Under the pieces are notes generated by a model. That model saw nothing but the letters and a program-made list of their open reading frames with translations, did no database searches and was not told the DNA's origin. Of a stretch of DNA of 64,000 nucleotides, positions 30,456 through 53,242 are shown in pieces; positions within the stretch are counted from its first letter, which is position 1, and each line of letters begins with the position of its first letter. The translations under genes were made by a program, and so were the position numbers. This stretch comes from Roseitranquillus sediminis (GTDB lineage Bacteria > Pseudomonadota > Alphaproteobacteria > Rhodobacterales > Rhodobacteraceae): the NCBI RefSeq assembly GCF_016918935.1, contig NZ_JAFFOB010000016.1, positions 1 to 64,000 of the forward strand, in the 5' to 3' direction.

Positions 30456-30471
30456 ACCGGAGCTCAATCGC

Positions 30472-31662: not shown

Positions 31663-31727
31663 AGCCAGAGCCACCGACCATGTGCGCCGCGATCCCACGA
31701 CCGCGGAAGAAGAAGGAGTCCGCCTGA

Positions 31728-32402: not shown

Positions 32403-32403
32403 G

Positions 32404-35538: not shown

Positions 35539-37308
35539 CTAACCGAACCTGAAGCCGAACAGCCCGCTGTCTTCTTTATCATCAGAGAGTCTTGTCGGCA
35601 GAACGATGTTCGCAGTCTCGAAGTCTTTCGGAAACGGAAGAGTCTCGTAAATATCAGAATTCATGGTGACGATGTACTGGCCTTCTGTTCCGACGGATCT
35701 CCGGCCGATCTGCAGAGCGGCGGAGATCTGCCGGGCATCAACGCCGTCGAAAAGATGACTATCGTGGATCAGAAACTGAGGACCGCCGAACCTATCGCGC
35801 ACACTCTCATATAGCGCGATATCCATGCAGAAGATTTCCATGCTGCGGATGCCAGTCCCGCGGTCGCCCTCTATACGGATCGAGAATTCAGGGCCGTTAT
35901 CGGTGGCGCTGACCTCAAAGTATCCCTCCCTGTTGATGTACAGCTCTCCGATAAGTTCGGCGATGCGCACGATAAGATCATCAAGCCGTGCGCGGTGCGT
36001 GGCATAGTCGGCCTGAAGCCGTCTCTGTATCTCGATACGACCCACCTTCAGCTCCGCCTTGCTGCTCTCGAGCGCTTCCGCCGCCTCGTATTTCTGTCTG
36101 AGAACAGCGAGTTCCGCCTCAAGAGCCGCTGATTCCCTCTGCAACGCAACCAGGTCCTCGAAGGCACCCTTGCCCTCAAGCGATGTGAGGAGCTCACGAC
36201 GCTGCCTGCTTGCCTCCTGCAGATCATCTTCTGATATGCTGATCTCGCGCTGTGTCTGCTCGATCTCGGACTGCAGATGAATGCGCCTATTGGCGGTCAC
36301 CGAACGCTGGAAAGCCTCAACATCCTCGAACCTGCGCAGCGCCACATCCGGCAGCTCTACCCCGCTGGCGTGGTACATGGCGGCGACATCGACCATATAG
36401 GCGGGTCGCTCCGCCTCAAGCGCCTGCTGCAGAAATCCCAGTGTTTCCCTCAGCGTCACCTGTTGACGGGTGATGTCCTGCAATCTGACGCGAAGCCGGG
36501 AGGCCTGTTCGGCGGTATCCCGATACGTCTCCATGACCTCGAAATTGTTTATCTCTTCACGCTTGGCGCGCGCTCTGCGTTCCGCCAGCGCGAGCTGTGG
36601 CCGCAGCTGTGCGACGGTTCCCACTACCTCTGAAACGGTTGAGGTGCTCGCTGCTCTCCGCAGGGCCTCCAACGTCTTCTCCTTGTCGCGCACATCCTGC
36701 AGCTCGCGCGCGATCCGCCACTCGAGGCCGAACATGTATGACAGGCAGACCTGATAGGACGATCTCTGCTGAGTCTCGGAGTTCCTCTCCGGGTGATTGA
36801 AGCCGCCGTCACTGTCGAGACGCAGAAAGTACTTCATCATCGGGCGGAAGGTCGGCGCGTTTTTCCTGCCGAAGTCCCCGGCCTTTTTCTCCGCGGGCAG
36901 GCCGAACCACGCATGGCCCAGATATCTGCACCAGTCGCTGTTGGACAAATACGGCCGCTCCGTCTCCTTATCTGTTTTCACCAGATCGTCCGGCAGCCCA
37001 TGCTCTCCCTGCAGGAAAAGCTTCCCGTGCTCTTTGCCGGACCGGGTGACAGTCACCCGCCGATCGCGGACCTGAAAAACGCCTGTGAATTCGACCTCCA
37101 CCAACTCCGCCGAGCGAAACAGCGAGTCAGTTCCCGCCGACGATCCCAACAGGAAGTCAACGATCTGCACAAAGCTCGTTTTGCCGGCGCTGTTGCGTGT
37201 GTTGCCAGCGGCTGCCGCATCTGTGGTGTCGGCCAGCAAGATATTCAGCCCCTCGTGAAAGGTGAGGCTTTTGAACTTCGGCAACGAGCTCGTGACCGAA
37301 AGTATCAC
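35539..37308 (-). CDS. ABC-3C system ATPase (DUF2326, SMC-like)
   Basis: The 589-residue protein has an SMC/RecN-type split ABC ATPase. Walker A is in GNTRNSAGKTSFVQIVDFLLG near residue 40. A long coiled-coil arm spans residues 200-440. The C-terminal half has a signature-like GDRGTGIRSMEIF and Walker B PQFLIHDSHLFDGVDARQ. The Ser/His after the Walker B aspartate matches DUF2326 members of ABC-three-component systems. The start overlaps the middle-component stop (GTGA/ATGA type). Such ATPases are thought to sense invading DNA and switch on the linked effector. Confidence 0.85.
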   Translation of the reverse strand: MILSVTSSLPKFKSLTFHEGLNILLADTTDAAAAGNTRNSAGKTSFVQIVDFLLGSSAGTDSLFRSAELVEVEFTGVFQVRDRRVTVTRSGKEHGKLFLQGEHGLPDDLVKTDKETERPYLSNSDWCRYLGHAWFGLPAEKKAGDFGRKNAPTFRPMMKYFLRLDSDGGFNHPERNSETQQRSSYQVCLSYMFGLEWRIARELQDVRDKEKTLEALRRAASTSTVSEVVGTVAQLRPQLALAERRARAKREEINNFEVMETYRDTAEQASRLRVRLQDITRQQVTLRETLGFLQQALEAERPAYMVDVAAMYHASGVELPDVALRRFEDVEAFQRSVTANRRIHLQSEIEQTQREISISEDDLQEASRQRRELLTSLEGKGAFEDLVALQRESAALEAELAVLRQKYEAAEALESSKAELKVGRIEIQRRLQADYATHRARLDDLIVRIAELIGELYINREGYFEVSATDNGPEFSIRIEGDRGTGIRSMEIFCMDIALYESVRDRFGGPQFLIHDSHLFDGVDARQISAALQIGRRSVGTEGQYIVTMNSDIYETLPFPKDFETANIVLPTRLSDDKEDSGLFGFRFG

Positions 37309-37544
37309 GGCCGGGCTTCCCGAGTGAGCAAGCCCCTGTTGTCATAGTCGATGGCCTTGGCCGCATAGAGCCACGACAACGCCAGAACAAACCAGTCAAA
37401 GGTGATGGGTTGCCCGCCGAAAGCCCGAGACGTCCGCACCCAGGTTTCCGAGACGCTTTGGGCCTCATCCAGCTGCGCAATGATGACCGCCCCGATCCCG
37501 GAGATGCACCGCTCGGGGGGCAGATGTTTGGCGGGCAGGATCAT
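37305..37544 (-). CDS. ABC-3C middle component
   Basis: The 79-residue protein (PAKHLPPERCISGIGAVIIAQL ... FDWFVLALSWLYAAKAIDYDN) is the size and pattern of the middle components of ABC-3C systems: small winged-helix-like adaptors that link ATPase and effector. It overlaps the effector gene by four bases upstream and the ATPase gene by four bases downstream. The assignment combines sequence pattern, length and fixed gene order. Confidence 0.75.
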   Translation of the reverse strand: MILPAKHLPPERCISGIGAVIIAQLDEAQSVSETWVRTSRAFGGQPITFDWFVLALSWLYAAKAIDYDNRGLLTREARP

Positions 37545-38467
37545 TCCGCGGCCTCCGCGGCGGCAGCGTTCTCGAAGATGTCGCAGCTCTCGAACAGGTA
37601 GGAAAGAAGGCTAGTAGCCGCCACATGGCGCGGAATAGGAACGTCACCCGGTCCCGCGATAAAGCGGTACAGCTCCGACAGGATGGTGTCGGGCGCAAGC
37701 GCCTGCGCTCTGAGTTCGGCGTAGCGGTTTCTGAACACGCCGGCGACGGTTTCGCCGCGCATTGGGTCGGGATGCGCGTTGAAGTAGGTCCCGATATGCG
37801 AAGCGTTGATCCGTCCAGCACGCAGGAGCTGCCGGGAAGAGCCGGATAAATTATTGAAGTCGAGCTTCTCCGGTGAGACCGGCACGATATCACCGGGCGG
37901 AAGATCCGTAGAATCGACGGCAACGATGAGGGCGGTGACCAGGTCCCGCACCTCGCCGAGTTGAAGGTGCTGATAGTCGCTGTTTCGGGCGACCGGTCCG
38001 ATGAATCTCGTCCGGTCCGCTTCGGAGAGTTGGCCCATAAGTTCTCTGATCTTCGGTGGACCGAAAAGAAACACCGGAAGCTCAGGATTGGCGTCGGAAA
38101 TACTCTTGTGCTTCATGACCGCCTCAACCGGCAGGCCCTCGACGACGTTGTGGGTCATGTGCCAGCTCTTCATGAGCGTGCCCAGGTGCTCTTTGGCCTT
38201 GGAGAGATCGTCGTCCATCTTGCCCAGAAGCTGAGAGACAGAGCCGGCTGCTCCGTTCTGTGCGCCGTAGCAGGCAAAGACGGCACCGTCCGACTGCCGG
38301 TAGCCGTCGCAACCCTTGTCGCCAAGCGATCCGTAGGGCTTCACACGGACAAAGTCGTCGCCAAAGCGGGCTTCCATCAGATCGCCGATGAAGGTCTGAA
38401 AGGCATTCCCCTGACAGGTCCGCAGCTTTAGGTCGAGCTGCCAATGCCAGCTGGTGTCTTCGCTCAT
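37541..38467 (-). CDS. ABC-3C effector-type protein with nuclease-like N-terminus
   Basis: The 308-residue protein begins with a segment resembling restriction-endonuclease-like folds (NAFQTFIGDLMEARFGDDFVRV, then GSLGDKGCDGYRQSDGAVFACYG). Here D-x-G-x-D-G and the following strand could form a PD-(D/E)xK-type site, but the usual lysine is replaced by a Gln/Asn region. The C-terminal half has the helical ABC-3C carboxy-terminal domain (FRNRYAELRAQALAPDTILSELY). It probably acts as the toxic or nucleic-acid-targeting arm. It lies 12 bp after higA. Confidence 0.75.
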   Translation of the reverse strand: MSEDTSWHWQLDLKLRTCQGNAFQTFIGDLMEARFGDDFVRVKPYGSLGDKGCDGYRQSDGAVFACYGAQNGAAGSVSQLLGKMDDDLSKAKEHLGTLMKSWHMTHNVVEGLPVEAVMKHKSISDANPELPVFLFGPPKIRELMGQLSEADRTRFIGPVARNSDYQHLQLGEVRDLVTALIVAVDSTDLPPGDIVPVSPEKLDFNNLSGSSRQLLRAGRINASHIGTYFNAHPDPMRGETVAGVFRNRYAELRAQALAPDTILSELYRFIAGPGDVPIPRHVAATSLLSYLFESCDIFENAAAAEAAE

Positions 38468-38479: not shown

Positions 38480-38776
38480 TCAGCGCAGCTCGACGTTCAG
38501 AGAACGCCCGACAACCTGCGCGGCGCGGGAGAGGGTGCCGAGCGTCACGCTGTCGTTGCGTGGGTCGAGCAGCCGGTCGAGCTGCGAGCGGCTGGTATGC
38601 AGCCGCCGTGCCATCTCCACCTTGCTAATCTTCTGCTCCTTCATGGCGACCACGAGCTGATGCGCCAATACGCGCTTGACCGCCTGCGTGGTGGTCTCCT
38701 CGAGCGTGCCCTGCGCAGCCAGGTAGTCCTCGAAAGAGGAGCCTGCGGTCCCCAGTTCTTTCTCGTCGCTCATCAC
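38480..38776 (-). CDS. higA: HigA-type XRE antitoxin
   Basis: The 98-residue protein has an XRE helix-turn-helix (KEQKISKVEMARRLHTSRSQLDRLLDP) followed by a short helix (LSRAAQVVGRSLNVELR). It overlaps the toxin gene by four bases (toxin first, as in higBA). It should bind the dyad upstream of higB and neutralise the toxin. Only 12 bp separate it from the ABC-3C effector gene, so it may also control that system. Confidence 0.87.
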   Translation of the reverse strand: MMSDEKELGTAGSSFEDYLAAQGTLEETTTQAVKRVLAHQLVVAMKEQKISKVEMARRLHTSRSQLDRLLDPRNDSVTLGTLSRAAQVVGRSLNVELR

Positions 38777-39126
38777 CTTAGTCCTTTCATGCGCCGCGCG
38801 GCCGTCTCGAGTTCGTTTGGCGGGGTCTTCTGCGTTTTCTTCATGAAGCCATGCAGAAGCACCATGCTGCCTTCATGGGCGCAGAAGAACACCCGTGCGA
38901 TCCGTCCGTCCTGAAGGTTCGTCCTGATCTCCCACAGTCCCTTCCGGCCGGCGATCTTCCGGCAGAGCGGCATCCCGACCGGCCAACCGAATTCCGCCGT
39001 CCGGATGTCATCACCGACTGCCTTGCGGTCGGGGGCCGAAAGCGAAAGCAGCCAGTCCCGGACTGGCTCGCTTCCCGCTTCTGACCGGAAGAACCGGGCA
39101 GGCAGACGCTTCAGATCACCTGCCAT
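38773..39126 (-). CDS. higB: HigB/Gp49-type RelE-superfamily toxin
   Basis: From ATG 39126 the protein has 117 residues and the Gp49/HigB pattern: VRDWLLSLSAPDRKAVGDDI, LWEIRTNLQDGRIARVFFCAHEGSMVLLHGFMKKTQKTP. The Arg/Phe/His residues of this stretch correspond to the RNA-cleaving surface of the family. The long upstream frame is non-coding. The toxin appears intact, unlike the parE of this window. Confidence 0.88.
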   Translation of the reverse strand: MAGDLKRLPARFFRSEAGSEPVRDWLLSLSAPDRKAVGDDIRTAEFGWPVGMPLCRKIAGRKGLWEIRTNLQDGRIARVFFCAHEGSMVLLHGFMKKTQKTPPNELETAARRMKGLR

Positions 39127-39130
39127 GGAT

Positions 39131-39146
39131 GTACCATTACTGGTGC
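39131..39146 (-). promoter_or_regulatory. Dyad operator upstream of higBA-ABC-3C
   Basis: GTACCA-TTAC-TGGTGC is an inverted repeat (ACCA/TGGT perfect, outer pairs 5 of 6) five bases upstream of the higB ATG. On the minus strand TTGCAA at about 39,150 and TGGTACAT form a likely promoter overlapping it, so HigA or HigBA could repress the whole five-gene unit. Confidence 0.55.
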
Positions 39147-39253
39147 ATTTTGCAAGCGGTGATCGCCCGCCTCTAGGCGGGCCCAGTTCCCCTGCTCGGT
39201 ATCTTCGCTCTTGGCCCTGGCGCCTGGCATCGCAGCATCCGCCGCGCTGAAGC

Positions 39254-41365
39254 TCATACTTCCGACCGAACCCGGTTCGCCCGCTGAGCATCGCGGAGCA
39301 CCTCGGAGAGATCGAGTTCGTGGTCGGCGGGCGGCTCCGTGGGGAGTGCGGCCTCGTCATGGCTCTTCTTCCTGGCGCCGGCCCCTTCCGCCGAGCAGGT
39401 TTCACTCTCCACTGGTCGTTCGTCGGCCTCCTGCGATCTGACGGCGAACCGCTCTCGGTTTCTCCTCGCGGCCTCGGCAAGCTCCTTCGCAATCTCGCCG
39501 AGGACGACGGCCTGGTCCGCCGCCACCTCCCCGAGACCCGAATAAACCTCGCGTTCCGTTGCGTCGTCCATGTCGTCTGTCGACCTGGATGAAGGCGAGG
39601 CTGACTCCTTCTGGCCCCTCCTCGCACTCTCGACGGCTTCTGCGCCTTTATCGGGAAGGCTCTGCGGGTCGGGACTGGCTTCGTCCTGCTCCGGAGAACT
39701 TTCGTCGAAGTGCGACGGCGGCTCCGGCAGATCCCCTATTTGAGCCTCGAAGATGCGCTTCAGCTCGCGGTCCTCGTAGTACGTCACCCGATGCGCGAGG
39801 ATGGGGTACATGTTCTGCAGCAGCGCGACAATGCGGGCCCCGCCGAGCATCCTCACCTGCTCGGGCCGCATCAGGCGGGCGGCATCGACCCGCTCCTGGA
39901 TGCTGGTGGCGAACTCGCTACTCTTCCAGGACTTCGAGCGCAGCGTGCGGGTGTAGTCGCCGACGGCGTTGCTGATGTAGGTCGGCGTCTCCTCGTCCGC
40001 CGGGGCCATGAAGAGCTGCATCCGGCAGTTGGCGAGGAAGGTTGCCGCCCCCTCCTTGCCGTAGAGGTCGCGCAGGGAGGCGATGGTCTGCACCACGATC
40101 ATCACGCGCCCGCCGTAGCTCCGGAGCGTCGTGATCGCTGAAGAGAGGACGTCCATGCGGCCGAGCGACACGAACTCGTCGAGGAGGAACAGGACTGGGA
40201 ACGTCTCGCCCTTCTCCTGCTTCGGCTCGGCACGCTGCAGGATGGCGATGGTCTGCTGGAACATCAGCCGGATCAGCGGCGCCAGGGGGACGAGATCATT
40301 CGGCGCGACGACGATGAAGATCGAAGCAGGCGTGCTGCGCAAGGTGTGGATGGAGAAATCCGACATCGCCGTCGCGTCTCTCACGGCCGGATCAGCCCAT
40401 AGGCTCAGGCCACCATCGGCAAGGACGGAGAGGTATGAGCTGAGGATGCGGGATTCCATGCCCGACATCTTGTAGAAGATCTTCCTGGCTTCCTCGGACT
40501 TCGCCTCGTCCCCAAGCTCCCTCAGAACCTTGAACGCCTCCCCGGGCTGCGAGAGGGCGTCGAAGATCGCCCCGATGGTGGGCGTACCCCGCTCGATCGC
40601 CAGCAGCGCCGTCGCCGCGAAGAGCTCGCGGGCGCCATCGAGGAATCCCTGCCCGTTGCCGTGGGCGACGATCAGGGAGGCGGCGAGACGCCGGGCCTCG
40701 GTGAAGCGGCGCCGAGGGTGCGCGGCCGCCACGTCGTCGAGGGGGTTGTAGCGATGCGTCCGGCCCTCCGGGTCATAGGGCGCGAACTTGTAGACCTTGT
40801 CCCCGATGGAAGCGCGGCGGCGCGCCGTCTTGGCGAAGTTCTCGCCCTTCACGTCGAGACAAAAGACTGAGCCCGGATAGGTCAGGAGCGTGGGGATAAC
40901 GACGCCCACGCCCTTGCCCGAGCCCGTTGGCGCGGCGATCAGGCTGTGCGGGATCTCTGGCGACGTGATGTAGTCGGCCCGGCTGCGCGGGCCTCCGAGC
41001 TTGCCGTAGATCGGACCAGTGATTCTCCTGAGCGGTGCCCTGAGCCCCGCTTGCCTCATCTCGGTCGTCGTCGCCCAGCGTGCGGAGCCATGACTGGTCA
41101 GCTCTCTGCGAAAGCCGATGGCTGGCGCGGCGACCGTCATCGCCAACGCCACGGCCCCACCCACCATGACGGCGGTGCGGAACGGCTCCGTGTCGGCACC
41201 GAGCGAGGACGGGGCAAACGCAAAGATCGTCCCGAAGCCGATACTCGTGAGGTCGCCGCCGACGGTCCAGGTCGCGTAACCACCCGCAGCGAGGATGCCG
41301 AGCATGATGCCGATGACGAGGCCCATGAGAGCGAGCGTCGCGATATCCCGAGCGGCTTGCGTCAC
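39254..41365 (-). CDS. virD4: VirD4/TraG coupling protein (T4CP)
   Basis: The 703-residue protein has two N-terminal membrane helices (about residues 8-30 and 62-85), Walker A SLIAAPTGSGKGVGVVIPTLL, and Walker B FPVLFLLDEFVSLGRMDVL, followed by the conserved TIASLRDLYGKEGAATFLANC. The charged C-terminal tail (from about residue 545) is family-variable. It recruits the relaxosome to the secretion channel. It starts 12 bp downstream of the relaxase stop on the minus strand. Confidence 0.94.
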   Translation of the reverse strand: MTQAARDIATLALMGLVIGIMLGILAAGGYATWTVGGDLTSIGFGTIFAFAPSSLGADTEPFRTAVMVGGAVALAMTVAAPAIGFRRELTSHGSARWATTTEMRQAGLRAPLRRITGPIYGKLGGPRSRADYITSPEIPHSLIAAPTGSGKGVGVVIPTLLTYPGSVFCLDVKGENFAKTARRRASIGDKVYKFAPYDPEGRTHRYNPLDDVAAAHPRRRFTEARRLAASLIVAHGNGQGFLDGARELFAATALLAIERGTPTIGAIFDALSQPGEAFKVLRELGDEAKSEEARKIFYKMSGMESRILSSYLSVLADGGLSLWADPAVRDATAMSDFSIHTLRSTPASIFIVVAPNDLVPLAPLIRLMFQQTIAILQRAEPKQEKGETFPVLFLLDEFVSLGRMDVLSSAITTLRSYGGRVMIVVQTIASLRDLYGKEGAATFLANCRMQLFMAPADEETPTYISNAVGDYTRTLRSKSWKSSEFATSIQERVDAARLMRPEQVRMLGGARIVALLQNMYPILAHRVTYYEDRELKRIFEAQIGDLPEPPSHFDESSPEQDEASPDPQSLPDKGAEAVESARRGQKESASPSSRSTDDMDDATEREVYSGLGEVAADQAVVLGEIAKELAEAARRNRERFAVRSQEADERPVESETCSAEGAGARKKSHDEAALPTEPPADHELDLSEVLRDAQRANRVRSEV

Positions 41366-41377: not shown

Positions 41378-43180
41378 TCAGAGCCCGCGGCCGTTGTCGC
41401 GCTCGCGACGCGCCCGCTCCTCGTCCTCGCGCTCCTGCCGCCGCCGCACGCCCTCCCGGCGCTCGGCCTCAGCGCGCTCGGCGGACCGCTCCGCCTGGAC
41501 CTGGCGCCATGTCTCGGCGTTGCGGGCTTGCTGCCTGGCGGCATCGTTGGCGACAGACGACGGCGCATAATCGGCACGATTCCGTCCGGCATCAGGTAGC
41601 TCCGCTCCTCTCCCATCGTCAGTTCTCTCCGACGTGGAGAACCGGCGGCCGACCTCCCTGCCCTCGCCTCTCGCGGCGTGCTCCCGTGCCTCCTGGTAGA
41701 TCGCTCCGACTTCATCGTGCATCCGGGCCAGAGCCGAGCGACGCTCGTCCGCGCTCTCCGGCCCCTCTCCGCGTTCGACGCGCGTCCGACCGCGCTCGCG
41801 TTCCTCGGCCGCGGCGAACTCCGCCGCCAGTCCTTTCGAGGGCACGCCGCCGGAGTACCGCTCCACCGTCGCCTCTCCATCGACCCCGTAGCGGGCCGCG
41901 ACGGCCACGACCTTCTCGTCCGCCTCCGCCTTGATTCCGGCGCGGCGCGGATCGGAGGCGTCGATGCCTTGATAGCGGCCGCTGTCATCCTTCACGGCGA
42001 AGTCGCGCAGCTGGCCGGGATCGGACATCATCGGCGCGCTGCGGGTCTTCAGCTCGTCGATCTGTCGCAGGACGCGCATCCGGCTCGCGCCGTCCTCCAT
42101 CTGCTCGACACCGCGATCCATCTTCTCGAAGTTCTGCCGAACCTCCTCACGTCTCTCCTCGACGCGCGCGCTGCTCATGTCGTTCTCCTGCTCTGGTGCG
42201 ACGGGGGTGTAGATGCTGTCGGTAAGGGCGCGCCCATGCGCGATCGCCTCGGAGGCCGCGCGCAACAGCGCTGCCTGCTCCGGTGCCTCGCGCTCGATCG
42301 CCCGGGCATCGGAAGCGAAGCGCCGGGCGTAATGGATCAGCGCCGCCGCCGCGCGGATTGCCGTCTCGGGGGAATGCTCCGGCGCCACCGGCGCCCGCTT
42401 CTCCTCCCATGCCCGGCGATACTCGGCGTCGGGCACGGGCCGGTCATGCACCCCGCGCGCCAGGCGCGGCGTCGCCTCGAGCGCGATCCCCTCCCGCCCG
42501 GCCACCTCGACCAGCACGGCGCGCATGGTGTCATAGTTCACGTCGCTGCGCCGGGAGACCTTCAGCCATTCTCCGTTGTCGAGGCCACGGCGGTGTACGA
42601 CGACGTGCATGTGCGGATGCGCCCGGTCGGTGTGGAAGGCGGTGTAGTAGTCGTAAGCATCGCCGCCATAGTCGCCCGAGCCGAACAGCTCCTCGGCCCA
42701 GGCCCGCCCTGCCCTCTCCGCGGCGCCGTGCGGCGTGCTCTCCGGGAAGCTGACGATGAAGTGGCTGGTGCGGTCCGCCGCACCCGATCCGTCCTGTGGC
42801 ATCCGCCACGCCGTCTCGATCGCCGCCGCCTGCTCGGCGTCGACCTCGACGCCCATGTACCTCTCGGACCGCTGCAGGATCTGCTCGCCGCCCCGCGACA
42901 GATACGCCATCTGCGCCCGGAGCCCGCGCAGGTCCGATGCCCCGCCCTTGCGGATCATCTTGATCACCGCCTGCGGCTTCCGCCCCGGCTGCCCGCCGCC
43001 CCCGTAGCGGGCGATGTCCTGCCTGTGAGCGGCCGCGAGCCCCGACCGCACGAGCCGTGCCCTGCCCGCCCGGTCGAACTCGACCTCCGCCCAGTCCTCG
43101 CCCATCACCGCGTCGAGCGGCGAGACATACGGCGCTGCCGCCCTGCCCCGCGCCAGGAGGTCGACAACCGCAACGGTCAT
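41378..43180 (-). CDS. virD2: VirD2-like relaxase
   Basis: The 600-residue protein has an N-terminal relaxase domain. Motif I tyrosine is in RAQMAYLSRGG, and the three-histidine metal site is HPHMHVVVHRRGL near residue 190. The second half is charged and helical and ends in a basic Arg-rich tail (REREDEERARRERDNGRGL-like), as in VirD2, which carries secretion signals. It nicks oriT and pilots the strand through the channel. The start overlaps mobC by four bases. Its predicted nic site is found about 540 bp upstream of its start. Confidence 0.92.
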   Translation of the reverse strand: MTVAVVDLLARGRAAAPYVSPLDAVMGEDWAEVEFDRAGRARLVRSGLAAAHRQDIARYGGGGQPGRKPQAVIKMIRKGGASDLRGLRAQMAYLSRGGEQILQRSERYMGVEVDAEQAAAIETAWRMPQDGSGAADRTSHFIVSFPESTPHGAAERAGRAWAEELFGSGDYGGDAYDYYTAFHTDRAHPHMHVVVHRRGLDNGEWLKVSRRSDVNYDTMRAVLVEVAGREGIALEATPRLARGVHDRPVPDAEYRRAWEEKRAPVAPEHSPETAIRAAAALIHYARRFASDARAIEREAPEQAALLRAASEAIAHGRALTDSIYTPVAPEQENDMSSARVEERREEVRQNFEKMDRGVEQMEDGASRMRVLRQIDELKTRSAPMMSDPGQLRDFAVKDDSGRYQGIDASDPRRAGIKAEADEKVVAVAARYGVDGEATVERYSGGVPSKGLAAEFAAAEERERGRTRVERGEGPESADERRSALARMHDEVGAIYQEAREHAARGEGREVGRRFSTSERTDDGRGAELPDAGRNRADYAPSSVANDAARQQARNAETWRQVQAERSAERAEAERREGVRRRQEREDEERARRERDNGRGL

Positions 43181-43656
43181 TCGGCAGCGGCCTTCTCCAG
43201 CCGTGCCAGCCCGTCCTTCCGCCGCGTGGCAAGATCGAGCAGCACCTGGAGCCGCGCCTCGATCCGCGCAAGCTCGCGCCCGAGCGCGGCGCGCTCCTCC
43301 AGGAAGGCGCGGTAGTCGGGATCGCGCGTCCGGTTCGCCGCCCGGGCGATCTGGTTGATGTTCCGAGCGACGCCGCCGAGCTGCCGCGTGGCGTCCCTGA
43401 GCGCCGCGACCTCGGCCGCATCGGCCTCGACGAACCCAGCGATCCGCCGCGCTGCGATCCGCAAGGCGCGGTTCCGCTTCAGTCCGAGCGGCGCGATCTG
43501 CGCGTCGAACTCGGCGAGCTCGGCCTCGGTCAACCGGACGGAGAGCGTCTTGTCGGCGCGCCTCGGACGGTCTGTCGTCGCCTCTGGACCGCTCCAGTTG
43601 CCGCCCTGCAGGCGGCGGTTCCGCCAGTCGGGAGTCTCGCCGTCGTGCTTGTCCAA
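43177..43656 (-). CDS. mobC: MobC/TraY-like relaxosome accessory protein
   Basis: The 159-residue protein has a ribbon-helix-helix region (DKTLSVRLTEAELAEFDAQIAPLGLKRNRALRIAARRI) and a C-terminal coiled coil (ERAALGRELARIEARLQVLLDL). MobC-like proteins bind oriT and bend it for relaxase access. It ends where the relaxase begins and lies just beside the predicted oriT. Confidence 0.85.
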   Translation of the reverse strand: MDKHDGETPDWRNRRLQGGNWSGPEATTDRPRRADKTLSVRLTEAELAEFDAQIAPLGLKRNRALRIAARRIAGFVEADAAEVAALRDATRQLGGVARNINQIARAANRTRDPDYRAFLEERAALGRELARIEARLQVLLDLATRRKDGLARLEKAAAE

Positions 43657-43686: not shown

Positions 43687-43720
43687 ATGCGAATGTTCTA
43701 CATTCGCATATATCCTGCCA
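43687..43720 (+). other. oriT: oriT with T-DNA-border-like nic site
   Basis: A perfect 9-bp inverted repeat, ATGCGAATG-TTCTA-CATTCGCAT (43687-43709), is followed directly by ATATCCTGCCA. On the minus strand 43720-43696 reads TGGCAGGATATAT then GCGAATGTAGA, matching the T-DNA border pattern TGGCAGGATATAT-N5-TGTAAA. The RP4/VirD2 consensus TATCCTG|C places the nick on the plus strand between 43717 and 43718. Hairpin plus nic is the standard oriT plan, and it lies between mobC and virC1. Confidence 0.85.
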
Positions 43721-43794
43721 ACCAAGAGACCCCACCCTTCTCTCCCTTCCTCAACCGCGTCAAGGGCGGCCGCGGCGATTTCTCCAATTCGTCG

Positions 43795-44060
43795 AACGGC
43801 TTGAGTGTCTCATCTGTCCTTTCCGACCTATCCGTCTCGACCGGGTTCTTCGACCTCTCCGTCCTCTTCGTCTCGACCGTCTCACGTGTCTCACCCGTCT
43901 CGATCGGGTCATCCGTCCCGATCGTCCCATGCGTCTCACCCGTCTCGATCGGGTCGTCCGTCCCGATCGTCCCATGCGTCTCGACCGGGCTGATCGTCTC
44001 GACCGTCTCACGTGTCTCGAGTGTCTCGAGTGTCCCGAACGTCTCGAGCGTCTTCTTCGG
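43795..44060. repeat. GTCTCGA-type repeat array with two 45-bp hairpin units
   Basis: Two 45-bp direct repeats (43889-43933 and 43934-43978) differ at one base. Each contains the perfect hairpin CGATCGGG-N8-CCCGATCG (43901-43924 and 43946-43969). Around them run shorter degenerate GTCTCGA(C/G) units, ending in CTCGAG-rich copies at 44016-44050. The array lies between the nic site and virC1. It may be a VirC1/VirC2 binding region, like the overdrive of Ti plasmids, a partition site, or a promoter-operator. No stop codons occur in several frames, an artefact of repetition. Confidence 0.8.
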
Positions 44061-44168
44061 CTCGATTGACCTCCGTGACTCGGCCGGGCTACCTCCGAGG
44101 GGCGGCGGCTTCATCTCGCTCAAGGTTGAGCGGGTCGAGCGCCGCATCTTGTGCGGTCGGGAGACGCC

Positions 44169-44897
44169 ATGAAGCTCGTCACCTTCACTTCCTTCAAGGG
44201 AGGCGCCGGGAAATCCACGGCGCTCATGGCCGCGGTGCCGGGGCTCCTCGCGGCTGGGAAACGCCTGGCGCTCCTTGAAGCCGACGAGAACGACACGCTC
44301 GCGCTCTGGCGGTCGAACGCCCGCGACAGCGGCACCTGGGACGAGGCGGTGACGATCCACGAGGCGACGGACCTCGGGTTGTTCGAGGCGAGCTACGCGG
44401 CTGCGGAGAAAGCGGGCGCGGATATCGCGCTCGTCGACTCCAAGGGTGGCGCGTCGGAGCTCAATACCGCGATCCTCGTCGCCTCCGACCTGATCCTGAT
44501 ACCGACCTCGCTCACCACCATCGACATCGACGGCGCGCTCTCGACCTTCCAGTTTGTGGTGAAGCTCCTGAGCGCGAACCGGCTCGAGATCCCGGTGGCG
44601 ATGATGATGACGCGGTTCCCGACCTACCGGCTCAACGCCTCCGAGCGGGAGAGCGTGGAGATCCTGAAGCGGGTGCCGCAGATGACGGCGCAGCTGCCGC
44701 TGCGCAACGCCTTCGCCGAGATCCAGGCGCTCGGCATGCTGCACCTACACGCGGCACGGCTGCGGGAGGCGGGGAGCATCGCGGCGCGTCATATCGAGAT
44801 CGCGCTGCGAGAGGCGAACGTCGTCTCGCAGGACATTTTCGACACGCTCTACGAGGCCGAGAGCACGGGGGCGCTCCATGCCGATCAGACGGCCTGA
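44169..44897 (+). CDS. virC1: VirC1-like ParA-family ATPase
   Basis: The 242-residue protein has a deviant Walker A FKGGAGKSTALMAAV near residues 8-22, DENDTLALWRSNARDS and the pattern GGASELNTAILVASDLILIPTSLTTIDIDGALST, which closely follows Agrobacterium VirC1 rather than plasmid ParA proteins. VirC1 binds overdrive DNA beside the T-DNA border and stimulates relaxosome assembly and strand release. The nearby border-like oriT supports the same job here. It overlaps virC2 by 20 bases. Confidence 0.85.
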   Translation: MKLVTFTSFKGGAGKSTALMAAVPGLLAAGKRLALLEADENDTLALWRSNARDSGTWDEAVTIHEATDLGLFEASYAAAEKAGADIALVDSKGGASELNTAILVASDLILIPTSLTTIDIDGALSTFQFVVKLLSANRLEIPVAMMMTRFPTYRLNASERESVEILKRVPQMTAQLPLRNAFAEIQALGMLHLHAARLREAGSIAARHIEIALREANVVSQDIFDTLYEAESTGALHADQTA

Positions 44898-45543
44898 AAC
44901 GGGCCACGAGGCGCTGTTCACGGCGCATCGCCGGACGCGGCATCTGAACGCGATCACGCAGGAAGCCCCGACAGCCGAAGCGCCCTCCCGTGGCCTGCCG
45001 GCGGCCGCCGATGGCGCTCCCGCACCCGGGGCGCCACAGAAGGCGTCTGCCGCTCTCGCGCGGTCAGCGGATGCTGGACCCGGGACGCGAGCTGACGCGG
45101 ATGTCACGACAACAGATAGACAGCCGCGGCGGCGGCGCCTTGTTGCCGCGAACACGGCGGCGGCCGCTTCCGATGAGATGATGAGCATCAAGATGGTGGT
45201 GCCCTACCCCGCGCGCGGCACCTCCCCGGCGCTTGACGCCCTCGCTGCCGAGATCGGCGAGGACGCCGCGGTGCGATCTCTGCTGCGCCGCGCGTTCGAC
45301 GACTTCCGCGGCGCCCTCGACGCCGGCGAAGTGCCGGAGGCGCTGCCGGCGTACGACGAGGTCGGGGCGACCGTCACCACGACCCGTCGTATCTCGCGAC
45401 GGGCGCATGGGATTGCAGTGCAGCATCTCGATCCGGCGCGGCTGCTCTCCGACCGCGCCTTCGCACGGCTGCTGGCGCGGCGGGCGCTGGCGTACTTCTT
45501 CGAGGCAGAACAGTGCTGCGCGGCAAAGGTCGACCCCAGCTGA
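44878..45543 (+). CDS. virC2: VirC2-like ribbon-helix-helix protein
   Basis: The 221-residue protein has a disordered, Ala/Pro/Arg-rich first half. The second half (MSIKMVVPYPARGTSPALDAL, EIGEDAAVRSLLRRAFDDF) matches the C-terminal RHH fold of VirC2, including the EEDAVIRS-type helix. VirC2 binds DNA next to the border with VirC1. It begins inside the virC1 3' end. The assignment rests on pattern and position. Confidence 0.65.
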   Translation: MPIRRPETGHEALFTAHRRTRHLNAITQEAPTAEAPSRGLPAAADGAPAPGAPQKASAALARSADAGPGTRADADVTTTDRQPRRRRLVAANTAAAASDEMMSIKMVVPYPARGTSPALDALAAEIGEDAAVRSLLRRAFDDFRGALDAGEVPEALPAYDEVGATVTTTRRISRRAHGIAVQHLDPARLLSDRAFARLLARRALAYFFEAEQCCAAKVDPS

Positions 45544-45566
45544 TTTGGGCCGCCTGCTCAGCTTAG

Positions 45567-46724
45567 GGAACGTCTGATCTACTGATCACCGTCGGCGGAA
45601 GTGGCGGCGGCGAACGGGTGATGTCCTCGACGGCCCAATGCCTGGGCGCCGCGGAGCGCATTTCAGATGATTTCGATAGCTCGGGACGGATTCCGCCTCA
45701 GGCGATCAAGCGTCGTCGGACCAGAAACAGGTTGCCGAGGCCGAACAGCGAGTAGAGCTGTGCCTGGTTCTTCGCCAGCCCCCGGTAGCGGGTCTTGCGG
45801 TAGCCGAACAGGCATTTCAGCACCCGGAACGGATGCTCGACCCTGGCCCGCAGGCTGGCGATGATCCGGTTGATGCGCTCGTCGACGGGATGGAGCCTGC
45901 CGCCCCTGGAGGCCTTGCGCATGACGCCCCAGACCTTGCCCTCGGCGCGGAACGCCGCCTCTCGCTCGCCGCTGACATAGCCCTTGTCGCCGAACACCGC
46001 CTGCTCGTCACCGTGCAGCAGGTCGTCAAACTTCTGGCTGTCGTGCACCTTGGCGGTGCTGGCTTCCATCGAGTCGACCACGCCGCTGTCGAGGTCGACG
46101 CCGACATGCGCCTTCATGCCGAAATACCAGGCGTTGCCCTTCTTCGTGCTGGTCATCTCCGGGTCGCGTGCGCCCTGCTTGTTCTTGGTCGAGCTTGGCG
46201 CGTCGATCAGCGTCGCATCCACCAGCGTGCCCTCGCGCAGCAGGATGCCCTTCTCGCGCAGGTAGTCGTTCACCGCCTCGAAGATCGCACGGGTCAGCTC
46301 GTGGCGCTCCAGCAGGTGGCGGAAGTTCAGGATGGTCGTCTCGTCCGGGATCGCGTCGTCGCCCAGCTCCAGGCCGGCAAACCGGCGCATCGCGTCGCTA
46401 TCGTAGAGCGCCTCCTCGGCCGCCGGGTCGGACAGCGCGTACCGTTGCTGCAGGCAGTAGATCCGGAGCATCACTTCCAGCGGCATCGGCGGCCGCCCGC
46501 CCAGCGGTCCCGCCTTCGGGTAGTGCGGCTCGATCAGCGCCGTCAGCCGCGACCAAGGCACCACCGCCTCCATCTCGGCGAGAAACTTCTCGCGCCGCGT
46601 GCGCTTCTTCTTCCCGGCATAGGCCAGCGAGGCGAAGGTGGTCTGCTTCATCGGGCGGCGCTCGATCGAGGTCGCCGCCAACCTACCAGATCACGGGCCG
46701 ATGCCGAGGTTCTTCAGAGGCTCC
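45567..46724 (-). mobile_element. IS5-family insertion sequence (1158 bp, TTAG duplication)
   Basis: The ends are GGAACGTCTGA (45567-45577) and TCAGAGGCTCC (46714-46724), imperfect inverted repeats. TTAG flanks both sides (45563-45566 and 46725-46728), matching the YTAR target of IS5. One intact transposase gene lies inside. It is inserted just after virC2. Confidence 0.93.
45698..46651 (-). CDS. IS5-family transposase
   Basis: From ATG 46651 the protein has 317 residues: an N-terminal DUF772-type domain (EPHYPKAGPLGGRPPMPLEVMLRIYCLQ) and a DDE domain (GTLVDATLIDAPSS; GDKGYVSGEREA; HPFRVLKCLFGYRKTRYRGLAKN). The D, D and E catalytic residues are present in order. It appears intact and could be active. 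A start ten codons upstream is possible. Confidence 0.95.
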   Translation of the reverse strand: MKQTTFASLAYAGKKKRTRREKFLAEMEAVVPWSRLTALIEPHYPKAGPLGGRPPMPLEVMLRIYCLQQRYALSDPAAEEALYDSDAMRRFAGLELGDDAIPDETTILNFRHLLERHELTRAIFEAVNDYLREKGILLREGTLVDATLIDAPSSTKNKQGARDPEMTSTKKGNAWYFGMKAHVGVDLDSGVVDSMEASTAKVHDSQKFDDLLHGDEQAVFGDKGYVSGEREAAFRAEGKVWGVMRKASRGGRLHPVDERINRIIASLRARVEHPFRVLKCLFGYRKTRYRGLAKNQAQLYSLFGLGNLFLVRRRLIA

Positions 46725-46839
46725 TTAGGTTCGCCTGCCGTGCACTTTGGAGCAACCGATTTCGATGTGCGGGTGGCGTCTACGGTCCGGAATTGCTGGA
46801 CTGGGGTTGGCGAAGCGGTGCCAGCTGCGGCTGTGCCGG

Positions 46840-47253
46840 TCAGGCCAGGAAGGGATTCAAGACCTCGACACCGAGCCCGTCAACATCCGCCGCGTTTCGC
46901 GTCACCAGAGTAAGGTCGTTCGACTTCGCTGTTGCCGCCAGCAGTGCGTCGATGACCGGCACTGGGCGCATCGCGGCCATCCGGCCCCATTCCTCGGCAA
47001 CGGAAGCATCCACAACAAGGATGCGATCTCCGAAGCCGGAGGTCACCTCACCGAGCCAAGCCTCGAGCACACCGGCCCTCCGCGGATCGCGCCGGCGTGC
47101 CAGATCGACACCCTTTCGGATCTCGCCGAGCACTAGGGCACTCAGCCAGAGATCATCCTCGGCGACACTGCTCCACCATGCGGCCACAGCCGGATCGCAG
47201 CGTGGTCCCTTGCGGACTTCCGAGATGATGTTGGTGTCGATCAGGAAGCTCAT
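46840..47253 (-). CDS. vapC: VapC/FitB-type PIN toxin
   Basis: The 137-residue PIN protein has the acidic site residues in LIDTNIISEV (Asp6), LGEIRKGV (Glu) and PVIDALLAATA and NDLTLVTRNAADV (Asp pair). PIN toxins cleave RNA. The antitoxin gene overlaps its start by four bases. Confidence 0.92.
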   Translation of the reverse strand: MSFLIDTNIISEVRKGPRCDPAVAAWWSSVAEDDLWLSALVLGEIRKGVDLARRRDPRRAGVLEAWLGEVTSGFGDRILVVDASVAEEWGRMAAMRPVPVIDALLAATAKSNDLTLVTRNAADVDGLGVEVLNPFLA

Positions 47254-47531
47254 AAAGCGACGTCACGTCCGACATCCGGACTCCGCTCGAGCTCGATGCC
47301 CTCAAGCGGCGCCGACGCCAGCAGCGCCTTAAGCCCGCCTGAATGTGCTGGGACGACCGTCTCACGCAAGACTGCGCGGGTCTCGGCCGCGCGCGCCGGA
47401 TCCCCGAGAGCGGTCGCGACCTCTCGCAGAAGGCCAGCGTCTTCCTTGCGAACCTGAACCTCGACGCGAACGAAGCCCTGCCGTTGCCGGCGCTTGCGCC
47501 AGGCGGTGACGGGAGACTGGGGTTCTGCCAC
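47250..47531 (-). CDS. vapB: Antitoxin of the PIN toxin
   Basis: The 93-residue protein has a basic N-terminus followed by a RHH-like strand and helix (QGFVRVEVQVRKEDAGLLREVATALGD) and a toxin-binding tail (GGLKALLASAPLEGIELER). The order antitoxin-toxin with a four-base overlap is that of vapBC. It is not a standard VapB sequence, so the family is assigned by context. Confidence 0.72.
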   Translation of the reverse strand: MAEPQSPVTAWRKRRQRQGFVRVEVQVRKEDAGLLREVATALGDPARAAETRAVLRETVVPAHSGGLKALLASAPLEGIELERSPDVGRDVAL

Positions 47532-47849
47532 TTCGCCCTCCTTTTTCCGGCAACATTACCGGAAACATAGTGCGCCGGCAATGTCATTCCAGAGACGTGG
47601 TGCGGCGTTCGCGGCGGGCAGCCATGCAAAAGCATGCAGTTCATGTAGGAGTCTGCGGCGGCTGCAGACTTGCTTCGATCATATCGAGGTCCACAGCCTG
47701 ACCTACATTTTAGACCTGCGAGATGCGCCTAGTCAGACAGCCTGTCGTTATGCCCGCCGCAGGAGTTCGCCTTCTCGATGAGGGAGTTGATCCTGGAACT
47801 CAGGCAATGTGACAGGGCTCGCCTGGTCCAAGGCCGGAAGATAGCTCCA
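47532..47849. other. Intergenic region without a recognised gene
   Basis: About 320 bp upstream of vapBC. The promoter of the toxin-antitoxin pair should lie in the first 60 bp (AATGTTGCCGGAAAAAG-type AT-richer sequence near 47,545-47,575). The rest holds no convincing ORF. Confidence 0.4.
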
Positions 47850-48308
47850 GAGCACGGCAGCGCTGCCAAACGTCATATCGGCCTGCCAGACAGCATGACG
47901 CTTGCCAAACATCTCTCCTCGATCTCCGCGCAAAGCCGGCTGACTGGCTCGTGGACAATGCCGACCGCGCCTATGACCTTGATCACATCATCCACCGCTG
48001 GCGTGGAGACGCCGTGGAAGTAGGCTTTCTGAATGACGACCACGAACGTCTTCTCGGCCGTCGGTCGCGGCTCAAGGAAACTCAGGACGTAGCTGCCCTT
48101 GCGCAGCTTCCGGACCTCCAGCGCGATCCGCCCTGCGCGGGCGTCCCAATCGCGGTCGTGGTATCAGTTCCGCCCGACCTCGCGCACGGCGAACGCGCTC
48201 CCTTCGCAGCACCCGTCTGCGCCTCGACTTCCAGATCCATGATCCGCTCGGCCGCGAAGGCTAGTATTTCGCGCACGAGGTCGCGATCGGCCTACTTCTC
48301 AAGCAGCT
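47850..48308 (-). pseudogene. IS256-family transposase remnant
   Basis: On the minus strand the N-terminal IS256 sequence MREILAFAAERIMDLEVEAQTG is followed, after frameshifts, by KLRKGSYVLSFLEPRPTAEKTF and VIQKAYFHGVSTPAVDDVIKV and then by decayed sequence. The catalytic domain is missing. It is a relic. Confidence 0.75.
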
Positions 48309-48453
48309 AGATCAGCGCGATATCTCGCATCGATCCGCTGCGCTATGTCGAAGACTCCGCGCGCGGCGTCCTACACCTTAGTCGCTGCCGCCCCCGCCGC
48401 TCGTCAGAGTTCACGCCGGAGGCCACGCATGGCGTGTCGGCAGTTCATGTCGT

Positions 48454-49170
48454 CGTCCCGAAGGATGACGTGCGTGTTCTTGCTGGGCTGGACGCATCGC
48501 AGGAACAGACCGCCGCATGCATCGTCGACGCCAGCGGCTCAATCGTTGCCGAAGCCAAGGTGGCGACCTGCTCCGACTCGAACATGGGCTGGCTCGCGCG
48601 ATGGTCGGCTGGGAGACGGAGCCTCTCGCGGTATGTCCTTTGAACGCGTCTCCCCCAGGGGAGCGCCGGTGATCTGTCTCGACGCGCGTCATGTGAACTT
48701 GGCTCTGAAGATGATGCCGAACAAATCGGACCTACACGATGCGCGAGTCTGCTCAGATCGGGCGCACCGGCGGGTTTCAAGGAGGTGCAGACCAAGAGCC
48801 ACGGCACCTATATCGTCCGTGCGCTGCTCAAGGCGCACGACGCGCTCGTCGGCATCCGGGTCCGGCTGGAGATCGCAGCCCGGGAACTGCTGAGGACGTT
48901 CGGGGCCTGTTCGGCAAGTGCGTCTGGGGCCTCATGCGCCGAGTGGAAAAGACCATCGCCGGCGGAGTCTCGATCGCCCCCGAGCTGCGTCCGGCCTTTA
49001 AGGCCTAGTCGCGCCGGATCGCGACCGTCGTCGATCAGATGCGGACGCTCGACGTCCAGGTGCGCGGCGGCGCCCCAAAACCGCACGGCCTGCCTTTTAT
49101 GATCATGCCGGGCATCCGTTCGATCACCGCGCTCGCCGTCGTTGCCTCGTTCGTCGACGCTGAGCGCCCG
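48454..49170 (+). pseudogene. IS110-family transposase remnant
   Basis: Pieces of an IS110 transposase follow each other in changing frames: LAGLDASQEQTAACIVDASGSIVAE, then VICLDARHVNLALKMMPNKSD, then FKEVQTKSHGTYIVRALLKAHDAL, then the C-terminal LLMIMPGIRSITALAVV. Several frameshifts and stops separate them. It is clearly dead. Confidence 0.8.
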
Positions 49171-49530
49171 GGAGGCCAGCGGACGGCTGTCGCCGTAGGG
49201 AACGTCGAGCCAAACATGCATCGACTTAGGCCTTCGGTCGCGAGGGCTTCTGCTTCGGCCTGCATGTTCATGTTCCGGGCCAGCCCATGCCGCTTGGGGC
49301 AGGGTGCCTGCGTGTCAAATGCTGGTACTGCCTCGAGACGCTAGCAGCTCCACAGGCGTCGAGCCCCACAGCATTGAAGGATCGGTGACCCGGACTGTCA
49401 TCCCATTCAGTATGCGCCAGATCTGAAAGCGCCTGGTCGTTCGAAGGGATGTTGGGCACTTCCAGCTCACGTAAGAGCGCCACGCCCCGATTGTCCAGAT
49501 AAAGCTGGCAGGCCACACCTACACTTTCGG
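49171..49530. other. Intergenic region without a recognised gene
   Basis: About 360 bp between the IS110 remnant and the parS sites. An 82-codon minus-strand frame (49268-49516) has no recognised features and is treated as unsupported. Confidence 0.4.
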
Positions 49531-49548
49531 ACTTAACAGCTGTTACGT
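49531..49548. promoter_or_regulatory. parS: parS-like palindrome 1
   Basis: ACTTAACAG-CTGTTACGT is palindromic at 17 of 18 positions (one mismatch) and contains GTTAACAGC-type partition-site sequence like that of repABC plasmids. It lies 17 bp from the second, perfect site. Confidence 0.75.
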
Positions 49549-49564
49549 CCGCGCCCTAGAGTGC

Positions 49565-49582
49565 ACTTAACAGCTGTTAAGT
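49565..49582. promoter_or_regulatory. parS: parS palindrome 2, overlapping the repC stop
   Basis: ACTTAACAG-CTGTTAAGT is a perfect 18-bp palindrome. The repC stop codon (49577-49579) lies inside it. RepB probably binds both copies. Its position just beyond repC is common in repABC plasmids. Confidence 0.85.
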
Positions 49583-50803
49583 CGTCCTCCGCCGACTGCT
49601 CAGCGCCATGACCATAGGCCCACAGGAAAACTTACCTACCACACACTTGGCCGACAGCGCACGCAAGTAGCCACCTGGAGACCTGATCTCCGTGAATCGC
49701 TCCAGCATTGCGACAACGACGATCGATGCCTGTTCACGCCCCATACATCGCTGGGCCTCCTCCCAGGCTGAGGCGGTGATGCCCATGGCCGACCGCAAAC
49801 GGCATGCGGCATCGTAGAGCTGATGCCAGTGGCGAATTTCGTTCTGGTGGAAGGTTTTCAGCGATTGGCAGTATGCGGTGACCATGTGAAGCGGGATCTT
49901 TGGCATGCGTCTCGTCCCAAGGTCTTCCATTCTACCCTCACGCACATCAGGTTTGTCGTCTTCAGGCGCGACGGAGGCTGCTTCGGCTTCTTCTAAGCTG
50001 GGTTCAAGATCTGTAGATTCTGTTTTTGAATTATGATGGTGGCGCTCATACTGGGCATCATTGGTGCCCACTTCTTCCACTATCGGCTCAGCAACAACGT
50101 TCCGCGCCTGCTCGATCAGCGCTTCAAGTTCGGCTCGATACTGGCCAAGGTCCTCGATCGACAGTTTTCGGCGAAGCGCACGCGCCGTGACGGCGGCCTT
50201 ATCGCGAAGCTGATCCCATAGGCCACGGCCTGGCTGCATCTCTTCGCCGAACTCTGCCAGTGCAGCGAGGTCACGCCGCATCAGGCTCACAACCTCTCTA
50301 AGCCGCTTCAGACGGTTCTCGGCGTCGCGAACAGCCACTGCTGCCCGTGCGATCTCCTCGGAGCGGCGGAAGAGTGGAGAGAGATCAAAGCCGAACGAAA
50401 CACGCTCATCGCCATGTTTGCGCACGTAGCGCTTCCCATTGGGGCTGTCGCGCCGGCCGACCAGCCCGGCGCCGACAAGCTTGGCGAGGTGACGTCGCAT
50501 CGTGGAGCAGGGCATGCCATTTAGGCGCTCGCAGATCGCTTTGTTGGAGGGAAAGACGATCATCTCAGCATTCTCGCCGAGCTCAGCGTCCGGGAAGAAG
50601 CTCAGCAGACCCTGTAGGACCCTCAGATCTCGCTCCGTAATGTCGAAAGCCGTCTGAGCCTTCGACAGCTCCCGAAGAAGCTCCCACTTGTTGATCAGCT
50701 TGCGGGAGACCTGCGCCTCAGGCTCTTGGATGGTGCGTAGATGGACGCGCGAGATCGGCCGCAGAAACGGCGAAAGCGGTGTGTACTCCATGAAAACGTT
50801 CAC
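49577..50803 (-). CDS. repC: RepC replication initiator of the repABC replicon
   Basis: The 408-residue protein has the RepC N-terminal winged-helix domain (KWELLRELSKAQTAFDITERDLRVLQGLLSFFPD, SNKAICERLNGMPCSTMRRHLAKLVGAGLVGRR) and a C-terminal domain with QARNVVAEPIVEEVGTND and MGREQASIVVVAMLERFTEIRSPGGYLRAL. The origin of replication is expected inside this gene, as in other repABC plasmids. It is controlled by the antisense RNA locus upstream. Confidence 0.95.
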   Translation of the reverse strand: MNVFMEYTPLSPFLRPISRVHLRTIQEPEAQVSRKLINKWELLRELSKAQTAFDITERDLRVLQGLLSFFPDAELGENAEMIVFPSNKAICERLNGMPCSTMRRHLAKLVGAGLVGRRDSPNGKRYVRKHGDERVSFGFDLSPLFRRSEEIARAAVAVRDAENRLKRLREVVSLMRRDLAALAEFGEEMQPGRGLWDQLRDKAAVTARALRRKLSIEDLGQYRAELEALIEQARNVVAEPIVEEVGTNDAQYERHHHNSKTESTDLEPSLEEAEAASVAPEDDKPDVREGRMEDLGTRRMPKIPLHMVTAYCQSLKTFHQNEIRHWHQLYDAACRLRSAMGITASAWEEAQRCMGREQASIVVVAMLERFTEIRSPGGYLRALSAKCVVGKFSCGPMVMALSSRRRTT

Positions 50804-50840
50804 GAAGGCAAAATTTTAGGCCCCGCGAGGCGCATTGCGC

Positions 50841-50963
50841 TTGCGGGATAGGAGCCAGATCGCTACGTTCAGGGTGTCAACACTGAGTTTTGTAGCGGGC
50901 TGGCCCCGACGCGAAACCCAAGAAAGGTCTCGTGAAGCTTGCTTCTCGGGGCCTTTTCTTTTT
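50841..50963 (+). ncRNA. Candidate incA antisense RNA with promoter and terminator
   Basis: On the strand opposite repC, TTGCGG (50841-50846) and TACGTT (50864-50869) are 17 bp apart. The transcript would start near 50,876 and end in a terminator with stem AAGGTCTCG/CGGGGCCTT (50924-50932 and 50947-50955, with G-U pairs) followed by TTCTTTTTC. This is the usual repB-repC antisense RNA that limits RepC synthesis. Confidence 0.75.
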
Positions 50964-51002
50964 CTGCCTGTGTCGTGCCTCCTTGTTGTTGGTCGCCCTG
51001 CC

Positions 51003-53109: not shown

Positions 53110-53127
53110 GTCTGCCCCGATCCGTAG

Positions 53128-53150
53128 GCGCGTTTTTTATGTGAACGCGC
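53128..53150 (-). promoter_or_regulatory. Inverted repeat in the repA promoter region
   Basis: GCGCGTT-N9-AACGCGC is a perfect 7-bp inverted repeat, about 20 bp upstream of the repA start in an AT-rich stretch (TTTTTTAT, TATTTTTTC). It is a likely RepA/RepB operator for autoregulation. Confidence 0.6.
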
Positions 53151-53242
53151 GTATTTTTTCGAGACTATTGCCCGAGCAACCAGATTCGTGCAAGCGCTTT
53201 CTAGATTTTGTGTGGCACGGATAGGAGACCACCAAGCGGCCT

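Follow-up and report, generated by a model that had tools for sequence, protein, structure and literature searches.

VirD2 is already known to be a MOBP relaxase, and both the ATCCTG rule and the nicking of oriTs and T-DNA borders by relaxases are established. MOBP relaxases, including VirD2 of the Ti plasmid, need 5'-ATCCTG-3', and their oriTs have an inverted repeat beside this motif (PMC3772185); the Ti right border, together with its overdrive, works as a VirD2-dependent oriT (PMC5985610). The closest known counterparts of the site described here include the borders of the Agrobacterium Ti/Ri plasmids (TGGCAGGATATATTGTGGTGTAAAC / TGACAGGATATATTGGCGGGTAAAC; PMC6726164), which resemble it in a 13-bp core and in the distance from this core to a GT. 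Like the plasmid studied here, Ti/Ri plasmids encode VirD1/VirD2 homologues with VirC1/VirC2 nearby. However, Ti/Ri borders are paired, whereas the putative oriT here exists as one copy, between virC and virD, and a perfect hairpin replaces the distal half of the border. Furthermore, the leading side of nic here bears a repeat array, in contrast to the Ti overdrive, which flanks the right border on its other side.

Three further systems bear comparison. With the oriT of RP4/RK2, the core has only the MOBP consensus in common; that system uses other accessory proteins and VirC is absent. The RP4/RK2 oriT (MOBP1, TraI/TraJ) contains the same ATCCTG nick motif and an inverted repeat on the 3'-OH side (layout in PMC3772185). 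In Helicobacter pylori tfs4/tfs3, a TATCCTGC motif with a 25-bp inverted repeat likewise lies just upstream of virD2, and the VirD2-like relaxase interacts with a VirC1-like protein; this relaxase, however, falls outside the VirD2 clade considered here, and a GCAGGATATAT-N6-GT rule is not reported (PMC3772185). The Roseobacter-group plasmids pDSHI01 and pDSHI03 likewise carry virB, virD2 and virD4 and have been shown to conjugate across genera, in a paper that mentions no oriT (PMC4886583). A search of open-licence papers found no report of such an oriT family, its hairpin, its array or its relaxase-less carriers. Thus, the oriT family, its array and the comparison with borders appear to be undescribed.

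The border-like site and its plasmid

The window analysed here is a 64-kb stretch of DNA. From 43720 to 43687 its minus strand reads TGGCAGGATATAT-GCGAAT-GT-AGA-AC-ATTCGC-AT, a T-DNA border core joined to a perfect hairpin; the core is spelled TGG then CAGGATATAT, ahead of GCGAAT GT AGA AC ATTCGC AT, and positions 43720-43697 correspond to TGGCAGGATATATGCGAATGTAGA. The original prediction had described this site as a near-copy of an Agrobacterium T-DNA border, and its minus-strand letters were confirmed. A search with TGRCAGGATATATNNNNNTGTARA allowing up to three mismatches returned it as the single match in the window, for which dinucleotide shuffles give an expectation of 0.00, and the border consensus has only this one match in the 3.73-Mb assembly. 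The border core TG[G/A]CAGGATATAT was located by sequence match at 43708-43720 (minus strand). Within it, the nic core GCAGGATATAT (43708-43718, minus strand) is identical in 27 of the 28 distinct sites of the family described below. Compared with the 25-bp border TG[G/A]CAGGATATAT-N6-GTAAAC, the core and the GT agree, and GTAAAC reads GTAGAAC here.

The hallmarks of a MOBP-type oriT are also present. The plus strand contains the (C/T)ATCCTG(C/T) nick motif as TATATCCTGCC, an inverted repeat lies directly 5' of this motif, and genes for a MOBP relaxase and an accessory protein adjoin the site. Because MOBP cleavage follows 5'-ATCCTG-3' (PMC3772185), the nick is predicted on the plus strand at 43717/43718, between TATATCCTG and CCA. 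Borders are cut at the equivalent position (between CCTG and CCA here), after 5'-ATCCTG-3'. Every sequence feature tested identifies the site as a MOBP-type oriT.

The hairpin occupies 43687-43709 on the minus strand, with a 3-nt loop at 43697-43699. Its perfect stem comprises 10 bp (43687-43696 paired with 43700-43709), one more than the 9 bp originally given. The hairpin takes in the final two core bases, the whole spacer and, of TGTA, the TGT, so that the predicted overlap with the N5-TGTA half of the border stands; this half is a fixed sequence only in part, however, since only its GT (and an AC three bases on) is invariant across the family. The remainder is a covarying hairpin arm, and in the register of the family the hairpin of the window is written N6-GT-NNN-AC-N6'.

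The plasmid, called broad-host in the original prediction, is supported here as a RepABC replicon (contig of 120,511 bp), its replication and partition module being recognised at 49577-53109 (minus strand). The site lies between virC1/virC2 on one side and virD1/virD2/virD4 on the other. In the original prediction the neighbours were mobC/virD2 and virC1/virC2; this context is sound, but the gene called mobC scores less well as MobC (2.7e-7) than as VirD1 (PF07328, E 7e-15; PRK13858, E 2e-39) and is VirD1-like by profile scores (43177-43656, minus strand). The adjacent gene (41378-43180, minus strand) encodes a VirD2-like MOBP relaxase (PF03432, 1e-11; PRK13863, 2e-50) in which the catalytic motifs are kept, namely Tyr93 in QMxYL and HxDxxxPHxH from residue 183. 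It is accompanied by a gene for the VirD4 coupling protein (39254-41365, minus strand; PRK13850, 1.6e-227). On the plus strand are virC1, for a ParA-like ATPase (44151-44897; PF07015, 5e-74), and virC2, for a ribbon-helix-helix protein (44878-45543; PF07181, 3.5e-9) that matches the solved structure of A. tumefaciens VirC2 (2rh3, E 3e-5). Mating-pair genes of the virB type span 25414-35485 (plus strand), where a lytic transglycosylase, VirB4, VirB5, VirB9, VirB10 and VirB11 were recognised.

Between virB11 and virD4, two CTD10 genes of ABC-three-component systems are found on the minus strand (35539-37308, with DUF2326, and 37541-38467), and a toxin-like ORF with a Gp49 domain (38773-39627) overlaps the end of virD4. 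These genes are possibly a defence or toxin-antitoxin insert.

Conservation of the site and its hairpin

A first comparison drew on eight plasmid loci, from Jiella, Acuticoccus, Roseobacter, Phaeobacter and Haematobacter, that share this gene order; in each of them the site lies between virC1 and virD1. Scanning 84,980 species genomes with a VirD2 alignment yielded 30 loci, and at 26 of these a VirD2 of the clade is present with its upstream DNA. All 26 have the site, on the same strand and 500-800 bp before virD2; of the others, L040 and L045 are truncated, and L043 and L044 come from a remote clade. The full set, window included, comprises 35 loci and 28 distinct sites, one plasmid being represented twice (L002, L036). 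The pattern GCAGGATATAT-N6-GT-NNN-AC-N6' occurs in the same place and on the same strand in all 35 loci with upstream DNA, across which VirD2 identity falls to 39%. GT and AC are invariant in the 28 distinct sites, and a single base change in the core is seen in one of them (GCAGGAAATAT, L025). Alignment of related plasmids, proposed originally as a check, therefore places a conserved site in every clade relative with upstream DNA; rather than lying elsewhere, the nic of these relatives is on the same strand beside virD1, either between virC1 and virD1 or a short way upstream of virD1. Near the relaxase genes of two distant VirD2-like plasmids (L013, L015) the site is absent.

The arms of the hairpin covary. 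Each of the six variable stem positions shows several different Watson-Crick pairs, and Watson-Crick pairing accounts for 148 of 168 cells, whereas 2000 shuffles of arms among sites gave 94 on average and never more than 117. For these counts identical sites were merged and related sites were treated as independent, which inflates them. An outer inverted repeat was also considered. It scores at least 8 in 14 of 29 loci, as opposed to 5% of mismatched pairs, but was rejected as a family feature because it occurs in only about half of the loci and is absent in the window.

A blind pattern search of 395 genomes of the taxonomic family and 385 of the class returned three genomes besides the window, representing two vir loci and one relaxase-less element. 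Both vir loci have the expected arrangement; one (L048/L073) is the same locus as L037 and the other (L076) is new. In a control with viral contigs, none of 37 pattern matches formed as many as five of the six stem pairs. Thus, the combination of pattern and stem is not a product of chance.

Three replicons carry the oriT in the absence of a recognisable partner: a relaxase of the oriT family was not found on L072, on pCP157_21 or on a Palleronia plasmid, the last having been searched with the VirD2 of the window only. L072 (G230:C18) is a circular 8.9-kb element (120-bp identical ends) encoding a Rep3 initiator, a phage capsid protein, a Clp-type protease and a D5 helicase; its oriT, at 1291-1320, sits inside a longer inverted repeat, and the element may be a satellite plasmid of a phage that is mobilised in trans. 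The Paracoccus marcusii plasmid pCP157_21 (L133, 3157 bp) has two head-to-head copies (2334, plus strand; 2270, minus strand), and the 204-kb plasmid of Palleronia sp. LCG004 (L134) has one at 4003; both plasmids are typed as non-mobilizable. Since such elements gain only if a helper acts in trans, the oriTs on these three replicons are probably exploited in this way. Among complete plasmids with a VirD1 of this kind, MOB-suite types 14 of 16 as non-mobilizable; those examined carry virD1, virD2 and mostly virD4/virB.

A repeat array between the oriT and virC1

About 28 degenerate 9-bp units (43806-44058; minus-strand consensus about GRTCGAGAC) form the strongest 8/9-bp periodicity in the window. 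When 540 bp on the virC1 side of the core were analysed at each locus, 34 of the 35 showed an array between the oriT and virC1, with a period of 8, 9, 16, 17 or 18 bp (z 4.7 to 34 relative to dinucleotide shuffles). The virD1 side of the core yielded weak multiples of three, as in coding DNA, or nothing. L026 is the exception: it lacks a virC1 within reach and shows only a weak 9-bp signal farther out (z 4). Unit sequences differ from lineage to lineage, and in all loci the array sits on the opposite side of the core from the Ti overdrive. Taken alone, the 9-bp period in the window would also fit coding DNA, a reading that is disfavoured in general because relatives have periods of 8 and 17 bp. 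A 348-aa ORF across the array and hairpin (43698-44744, minus strand) was accordingly rejected as a gene, given these periods and the lack of a match to any protein family. At rhizobial borders and in rhizobial virC1-virD1 gaps, no array with an 8/9-bp period was found at 300 bp. Hansen reportedly described 8-bp repeats in the Ri enhancer in 1992.

Overdrive is bound by VirC1, which delivers the relaxosome to VirD4 (PMC4285021, PMC4949242). Judged from its sequence and position, the array is probably an overdrive-like site for VirC1 (ParA-like) and VirC2 (ribbon-helix-helix). It might instead be a partition site of the plasmid, or a repeat in decay that plays no part in transfer, which we consider possible but rather unlikely. 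ParA proteins with ribbon-helix-helix partners usually bind such arrays, and the array sequence does change with each lineage. However, the plasmid encodes its own RepAB partition genes, and the array keeps to the virC1-oriT gap (34/35 loci); the distant plasmid L015, which has a ParA gene and no border core, nevertheless also has an 8-bp array.

Plasmid oriT, T-DNA borders and a proposed transfer model

In the rhizobial vir plasmids pRL7, pBq66S1MBb and p42a the site was not found in the virC-virD gap. Across the whole records, the bare 11-mer GCAGGATATAT is present in five, four and three exact copies, respectively, all lying away from virD on plasmids that encode related VirD1/VirD2. Although the search did not include the GT, this dinucleotide follows at the same distance (GCAGGATATAT-N6-GT) in 12 of 12 copies. 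In eleven of these, no more than 3 of 8 stem positions pair; the twelfth, at p42a 94409, has 6 of 8 and is perhaps an intermediate, or a chance occurrence. A RolB-family gene among the pRL7 copies suggests that these are borders of the T-DNA type, and published Ti/Ri borders (primers printed in PMC6726164) obey the same core and GT rule. The border spans are 44855-54574 in pRL7 (L069), 127981-132587 in pBq66S1MBb (L070) and 82786-94409 in p42a (L071), all plasmids of nodule bacteria, and TTTGTTTG-like overdrive words occur to the right of some of these borders.

The relaxases of oriT and border plasmids form one family. In the VirD2 tree the rhizobial border plasmids form one group (98/90), the border clade is separate (97/99), and the hairpin group amounts to one change in 48% of bootstrap trees. 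As the 11-mer and GT occur in both the oriT family and the rhizobial borders, one nic rule is shared: at the sequence level, [G/A]CAGGATATAT-N6-GT is common to plasmid oriT and T-DNA border. This strengthens the suggestion that the VirD2-like relaxase and T-DNA processing follow a single recognition rule. By the same comparison, what marks the oriT state is that the site is single, adjoins virD1 and has a hairpin next to it.

Convergence offers a different and, in our view, unlikely account, in which the border likeness is simply the general MOBP nic consensus YATCCTGY (RP4, Ti) and the longer match arose independently. ATCCTG is indeed common to RP4, Ti borders and H. pylori tfs4, and oriTs have an adjacent inverted repeat (PMC3772185). 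Against this, the 11-mer with GT at a fixed 6-nt distance recurs in 27 of 28 distinct sites and in all 12 borders on three rhizobial plasmids with homologous VirD1/VirD2, the relaxases belong to one family, and the more distant VirD2-like plasmids L013 and L015 lack the site near the relaxase.

It is very improbable that the site is itself a T-DNA border. The core is nearly exact, VirD1/VirD2 homologues are encoded on the plasmid, and VirC1/VirC2/VirD1/VirD2/VirD4 constitute the T-DNA processing set. However, T-DNA borders are paired direct repeats and a second copy is absent from the assembly; moreover, the site is always beside virD1, and its hairpin is missing in 11 of 12 rhizobial borders. 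Because it is unpaired, we conclude from its sequence that the site is not a T-DNA border. Equally improbable is a terminator or operator of virD1, with an incidental 13-bp match and the oriT elsewhere: the site does lie ~60 bp upstream of virD1, but a free operator would not hold the 11-mer while its arms covary freely, and the site also occurs on replicons where no relaxase of the family was found.

Borders of another kind were observed in two Rhizobiales isolates with virC/virD genes, AFS054504 and AFS068226, whose T-DNA-like segments have borders that abut eukaryote-type telomere repeats on the inside. These borders are at 33446, 38495, 54105, 58080 and 65686 on contig C61 of G776 (L044; within L090/L091), and at 8897 and 191 (minus) on contig C45 of G775 (L043; within L092). 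The repeats, (CCCTAA)4-7 after left-type borders and TTAGGG before right-type borders, are oriented as in a linear chromosome, and (CCCTAA)3 occurs in G775/G776 only at such borders and at one other place (G776:C65:3735). One segment encodes a protein with an octopine-dehydrogenase domain. The segments resemble a natural T-DNA laid out as a linear minichromosome, suited to a host whose telomeres consist of TTAGGG; a search of open-licence papers found no report of a natural telomere-bearing T-DNA minichromosome.

Returning to the window, the site is almost certainly an oriT, the start point of plasmid self-transfer, and to the whole model that follows, for the oriT of a conjugative RepABC plasmid of the VirB/VirD4 type, we assign a probability of about 0.93. 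From the site, its conservation, the covarying hairpin, the synteny and the array, all read from the DNA, we infer the cleavage, the strand and order of transfer, and the roles of hairpin and array. VirD1 and VirD2 would assemble on the border-like nic region, where VirD2 would cut the plus strand at 43717/43718 and remain attached to the 5' end created at 43718. Transfer would proceed toward higher coordinates, with the array and virC1/virC2 entering first and virD2/virD1 last. The hairpin, on the 3'-OH side and folded in single-stranded DNA, would help the relaxase to recognise and rejoin the end. VirC2/VirC1 would probably load on the 8/9-bp array, stimulating nicking and bringing the relaxosome to VirD4, such that the array would do for this plasmid what overdrive does for the Ti plasmid.

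A broader and more tentative proposal, which we hold jointly at slightly less than even odds, is that borders arose from such an oriT when the hairpin was lost and the nic region duplicated, that overdrive derives from, or replaces, the 8/9-bp array, that the aquatic plasmids retain the entire T-DNA-processing module in its ancestral, conjugative form, and that VirC loads on the array, which evolves fast and couples a ParA-like partner to relaxosome docking.

The site provides a link, at the level of sequence, between conjugation and T-DNA transfer, in which one VirD1/VirD2/VirC1/VirC2 set is associated with a hairpin oriT on the one hand and with hairpin-less borders for plants on the other. 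The origin of borders and overdrive thereby becomes testable on marine plasmids, which are harmless. The family also supplies a usable oriT signature for plasmids typed as non-mobilizable and for relaxase-less replicons that may move in trans.
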